Shown piece after piece: positions 28,599 through 28,822 of a stretch of 64,000 nucleotides of DNA. Source of the stretch: Trichocoleus desertorum NBK24. Lineage in GTDB: Bacteria; Cyanobacteriota; Cyanobacteriia; FACHB-46. The notes beneath the pieces are model-generated. The model was not told the origin of the DNA. It saw only the letters and a list, made by a program, of their open reading frames with translations, and ran no database searches. The stretch lies in assembly GCF_030409055.1 (NCBI RefSeq), contig NZ_CP116619.1, positions 62,001 through 126,000 on the forward strand, read 5' to 3'. The stretch's first letter is position 1, and every line of letters begins with the position of its first letter. Both the position numbers and the translations under genes were made by a program.

Positions 28599-28672
28599 GG
28601 ACGCATAGCTCAGTTGGTTAGAGCACTACCTTGACATGGTAGGGGTCACAGGTTCGAGTCCTGTTGTGTCCA
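28599..28672 (+). tRNA. tRNA-Val(GAC)
   Basis: A full cloverleaf can be drawn: acceptor GGACGCA with TGTGTCC (one G-T pair), D arm GCTC/GAGC, anticodon stem CTACC/GGTAG with loop TTGACAT (anticodon GAC), T arm ACAGG/CCTGT around TTCGAGT. CCA is not encoded and a T-run follows. The gene is intact although a CAST is inserted 7 bp beyond it. Its anticodon arm is the target of the homing crRNA. Confidence 0.95.
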
Positions 28673-28679
28673 TTTTTTA

Positions 28680-28790
28680 TGTACAGTGACAAATTGTTTG
28701 TCATCGGTGACAGATTATTGTCGCTGGTGACAAATCAGTGTCGTTGAGACAAAATAGTGTCGTCAACTTAGTGGTGACAAATTAACGTCG
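28680..28790. repeat. CAST transposon end with TnsB-binding-like repeats
   Basis: TGTACAGTGAC starts the end. Five related motifs follow: TGACAAATTGTTTGTCA at 28687, TGACAGATTATTGTCG at 28708, TGACAAATCAGTGTCG at 28728, GAGACAAAATAGTGTCG at 28747 and TGACAAATTAACGTCG at 28775. Arrays of this kind bind the TnsB transposase in Cas12k elements. This is the target-proximal end. Confidence 0.85.
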
Positions 28791-28792
28791 TT

Positions 28793-28822
28793 TGTCAACG
28801 TAGTGCTCTCTTTCAACCCACC
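28793..28822 (-). ncRNA. Delocalised homing crRNA of the CAST
   Basis: CTTTCAACCCACC at 28810-28822 is the complement of GGTGGGTTGAAAG, the 3' end of the array repeat, standing alone 138 bp from the array. Read on the minus strand it is followed by AGAGCACTACGTTGACA (28809 down to 28793), which equals tRNA-Val positions 28620-28636 at 16 of 17 bases. The protospacer is preceded by GGTT (28616-28619), a valid NGTN PAM. Only the handle-proximal part of the repeat is conserved, as known for V-K homing guides. Confidence 0.85.

Follow-up and report, generated by a model that had tools for sequence, protein, structure and literature searches.

The type V-K CAST of Trichocoleus desertorum NBK24 carries, at the inner border of its left end, a truncated CRISPR repeat (R*) followed by a 17-nt guide directed against the neighbouring tRNA-Val gene, and homing by this guide, through Cas12k and the Tns proteins, very probably explains the insertion of the element beside that tRNA. 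The guide is the delocalized crRNA (R*) already published for V-K CASTs: it is real, ordinary in kind, and not new. An independent survey of 56 loci confirms that the homing of V-K CASTs to tRNA genes relies on a guide of exactly 17 nt; it also provides evidence from nature on how far mismatches are tolerated, and leaves the accepted picture unchanged. "The window" refers here to the whole stretch of DNA analysed (64,000 nt); the host genome is a single 5.46-Mb contig.

The element and its insertion site

The element is a type V-K CAST, with Cas12k, TniQ, TnsC, TnsB and a short array. Cas12k is encoded on the minus strand at 29749..31656 (PADLOC 1.6e-301 over 635 aa; NCBIfam V_Cas12k), and the small, V-K-type TniQ (37323..37832), TnsC (37832..38671) and TnsB (38665..40407), all on the same strand, were recognised by the PADLOC V-K models. 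The V-K CRISPR array (28961..29286, minus strand) has five repeats, one of them degenerate, and four spacers, for which no convincing match was found among plasmid and phage targets. A 458-nt region separates cas12k from the array, with no match to an Rfam family, and the likely tracrRNA region can be placed there by position, at 29475..29748 on the minus strand; we take this region to resemble the tracrRNA of ShCAST.

The CAST begins 8 bp past an intact tRNA-Val(GAC) gene, its attachment-site gene (28599..28672, plus strand; ARAGORN, Rfam RF00005). The left end, with its TGTACAG terminus, occupies 28680..28792 (plus strand) and bears TnsB-site-like repeats at 28706, 28726, 28745 and 28773. 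A right end was sought beside tnsB within the window and none was found; the cargo extends from 40536 to the window edge at 64000 and beyond, to the actual right end, TGTACAGTGACTAATTATTTGTC, on the minus strand at genome position C1:138237 (L011:12237), 12.2 kb past that edge. The two transposon ends match, both have TnsB-site repeats, and the element measures 47,558 bp from one to the other. An 8-bp sequence, ATTTTTTA, is present on both flanks (window 28672-28680; L011:12238-12245), at a T-rich site; the target duplication of Tn7-like elements is usually 5 bp. In a genus-mate (G002), the left and right flanks are joined and the element is absent, leaving an empty site.

An IS1-like insertion with inverted repeats of about 26 bp lies directly upstream of cas12k (31847-32912). 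This is the usual place of cvkR-like V-K regulators, and none was recognised at 31847-32912. The type I restriction genes of the cargo (32847-35739) look broken: an N-terminal fragment of HsdM adjoins the IS1-like element, and HsdR is divided between two reading frames, at 33394-33927 and at 33937-35739.

The homing guide, its PAM and its target

The truncated repeat, GGTGGGTTGAAAG, is 13 nt long (28810..28822, minus strand), and an earlier note on this DNA had correctly read it as a lone repeat handle; it is the same as the 3'-terminal 13 nt of the array repeats. The 17-nt guide, AGAGCACTACGTTGACA, follows directly (28793..28809, minus strand). Its protospacer, AGAGCACTACCTTGACA, lies inside tRNA-Val(GAC) at 28620..28636 (plus strand) and matches the guide at 16 of 17 bases, the sole mismatch being at guide position 11. 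The protospacer is preceded by a PAM of the NGTN type, GGTT, in the D-loop of the tRNA (28616..28619, plus strand), and TGTACAG, at 28680, starts on the 61st base past the PAM, with 60 bases in between. The match, PAM and spacing that the note had put forward are, thus, all as it described them.

The match also exceeds what chance would give. A scan of the window for the guide with up to three mismatches recovered only the guide itself and the tRNA, for a chance expectation of 0.11, and the note's own condition for abandoning its claim, a 16/17 match at many unrelated places in the genome, was not what was found: only one other place in the 5.46-Mb genome (C1:5103469) lies within one mismatch of the guide, and it is preceded by GCTG, and hence lacks a GTN PAM, with no tRNA predicted there. 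The 13-nt handle occurs in both CASTs of this genome and in only three further copies; these were considered as further guides, but had no tRNA alongside and are taken as chance occurrences. The predicted fold of the guide RNA is unremarkable (z = -0.15), a scan for promoters and terminators around the guide gave results at chance level, and, in a simple duplex search, shuffled 13-mers paired with the presumed tracrRNA region as well as the handle did.

Guides and tRNA genes in related elements

Cas12k loci came from two sources, 390 genomes of the class and a set of named genome contigs; besides the window, 68 loci were examined over the stretch lying 3' of cas12k. Comparison was possible for 56 loci with a tRNA on the expected side and directed towards the element, under a strict rule that required TGAAAG and then a 17-nt stretch whose match in the tRNA region is preceded by an NGTN PAM. 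The note had suggested looking in other V-K elements for the same handle with a tRNA-matching 17-mer, and the combination was indeed found with no more than one mismatch in 51 of the 56 (35 perfect matches and 16 with one mismatch). Run against the tRNAs of other isoacceptors, the same guides reached 0-1 mismatch in two of some 2,870 tests, and none of the 280 tests with shuffled DNA did so. The targets include Val(GAC, CAC, TAC), Phe, Pro, His, Gly, Thr, Ala, Met, Lys, Asp, Leu and Arg tRNAs, and the guide covaries with whichever tRNA is adjacent. The agreement of guide, PAM, spacing and end on which the note had relied, thus, holds here and in these 51 loci, and, together with the empty site in the genus-mate, it supports the proposal that the guide accounts for the insertion beside tRNA-Val.

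The length of the guide can be read from the per-base identity between guide and tRNA (54 loci), which is about 0.89-1.0 over the first 17 bases and falls to about 0.24, the level of chance, at base 18, showing that the guide is exactly 17 nt long. Mismatches among the loci are absent from guide bases 1-6 and are most frequent at bases 11-16. All 51 strict matches have an NGTN PAM, as the rule required; GGTT, GGTA and similar sequences were still recovered when no PAM was imposed on the search. The spacing from PAM to left end is kept across the relatives. Handles fit the repeat of their own array slightly better than those of other loci, a difference seen best at the seventh and eighth bases from the end.

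Three loci (L019, L106 and L108) failed the strict rule only through their handle, which reads GGAAAG or GAAAC rather than TGAAAG. In two others (L075 and L093), the tRNA lies far away and is not matched by the guide; that of L093 fits a tRNA-Ala instead, with one mismatch. Perfect guides to tRNA-His and tRNA-Val(TAC) are present in L062 and L089, respectively, with no tRNA predicted alongside, and, in several loci without a guide match, there is no predicted tRNA or the sequence ends early.

The same genome contains a second V-K CAST (G000:C1:959003-967303; L053), with a Cas12k 60% identical to that described above. It adjoins a tRNA-Phe gene and its guide, which differs from the tRNA-Val guide, matches this tRNA perfectly over 17 nt, with 61 bases from PAM to left end. 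A left-end relic (TATACAGTGACTAATT...) was also observed at L012:1368-1520 (G000:C1:239.4 kb), 86 bases past a GGTA that belongs to a degenerate sequence resembling tRNA-Ala(CGC) and not called by ARAGORN; the relic looks like what remains of a CAST since lost from a third tRNA site.

Homing mechanism and alternative explanations

By analogy with published V-K CASTs, from which the steps of RNA production, complex formation and transposition are taken, homing may be envisaged as follows. R* and the 17-nt spacer, which lie downstream of the array where the left end meets the interior of the element, would be copied into RNA together with the array or after it, and the resulting guide RNA would be loaded into Cas12k together with the tracrRNA. 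Cas12k would then bind the segment of tRNA-Val running from the D-loop to the anticodon arm, behind the GTN PAM, and TniQ and TnsC would be recruited after this binding. Insertion by TnsB would follow some 60 bp away from the PAM, the left end being the closer of the two ends, and would place the element immediately 3' of the tRNA without disrupting it.

The single mismatch gives some indication of where the guide came from. The anticodon stem and loop of tRNA-Val read CTACC-TTGACAT-GGTAG in the host and in G002, whereas the guide has CTACG. The sequence GGTTAGAGCACTACGTTGACA is found exactly in 35 of the 390 class genomes, including another genus-mate (G001), and is absent from the host genome. 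Because the guide fits the tRNA-Val of other cyanobacteria perfectly and the resident tRNA at all but one base, its acquisition probably took place in a different host, and the mismatch was probably tolerated when the guide directed the present insertion; the perfect fit to tRNA-Val elsewhere would then be a trace of horizontal transfer. The empty site of G002 already has the C form, so the difference in the tRNA probably predates the insertion.

The same mismatch could be taken to mean that the guide is a relic, with an ancestral, disused match to tRNA-Val, the element having arrived by means of an array guide, by RNA-independent V-K transposition or by transfer of the whole region. Perfect matches exist in other hosts, and V-K elements show notable off-site transposition (PMC11406308). 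However, the PAM, spacing and orientation of the insertion are those predicted by the guide, a placement so exact would be unexpected from an off-site event, the spacing is conserved in relatives and 15 other loci with one mismatch retain a geometry that looks functional; we consider a disused guide very unlikely. A coincidental resemblance to the tRNA might also be imagined, given that the guide ends in TTGACA, where it merges with the left end's TnsB-site-like repeats, and that its 3' end abuts the repeat TGACAAACGACG. Such a coincidence has a negligible probability: it is at odds with the low expectation calculated for the window and was refuted by the comparative test, in which the relatives pair many different guides with many different tRNAs. 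Homing by the guide remains, by a wide measure, the explanation that accounts best for the position of this CAST.

The type III-B cargo

The cargo between 40536 and 57000 encodes a type III-B Cas10/Cmr2, Cmr3-6, a CARF protein, a reverse transcriptase (RT; 48056-49276), Cas1 (50401-51315) and Cas2 (51315-51590), and contains a CRISPR array of about 67 repeats. This III-B CRISPR-Cas locus is apparently complete. Among the sampled genomes, compared by contig position, no other relative of the cargo Cas10 was found near a Cas12k gene. V-K CASTs have been stated to be without adaptation genes (PMC11406308), and the cargo, for this reason, deserves a study of its own; it is a more unusual part of the element than the homing guide. 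It is unlikely that the adaptation module of the cargo can also load the V-K array, but, if it did, this would be a V-K CAST bringing its own means of spacer acquisition.

Comparison with known systems

The left end was found downstream of a tRNA gene in 118 cyanobacterial CASTs, with an R* of about 12 nt, a spacer usually of 17 nt, termed the "anchor spacer" when beside R*, a GTN PAM and a distance from PAM to left end of 46-82 nt (PMC9938897). This tRNA-homing strategy of V-K CASTs is also described elsewhere (PMC11406308, PMC11656645, PMC8649781, PMC10949235), and the delocalized crRNA, or truncated repeat-spacer, is credited to Saito 2021 and Hsieh & Peters 2021 in the passages citing them in PMC11656645, PMC11406308 and PMC8649781. 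The guide described here is alike in its truncated repeat (13 nt as against about 12), its 17-nt spacer, its GTN PAM, its tRNA target facing the element, its location between array and left end, and its spacing (60 bases, within the published range). There is no difference in kind; the particular feature here is the one mismatch to the resident tRNA, in a guide exact for other hosts. ShCAST, from Scytonema hofmannii, has the same layout and guide length, with insertion 60-66 bp past the PAM (PMC10949235), but the 17-bp motif in its left end matches tRNA-Leu (PMC10949235) rather than tRNA-Val, and the element described here also differs in measuring 47.6 kb and in having a III-B CRISPR-Cas locus among its cargo. 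Type I-F3 CASTs, which use guides to guaC, yciA, ffs and rsmJ (PMC11406308), similarly reserve a guide for a safe site on the chromosome, but they differ in their effector (Cascade), their repeats and their targets.
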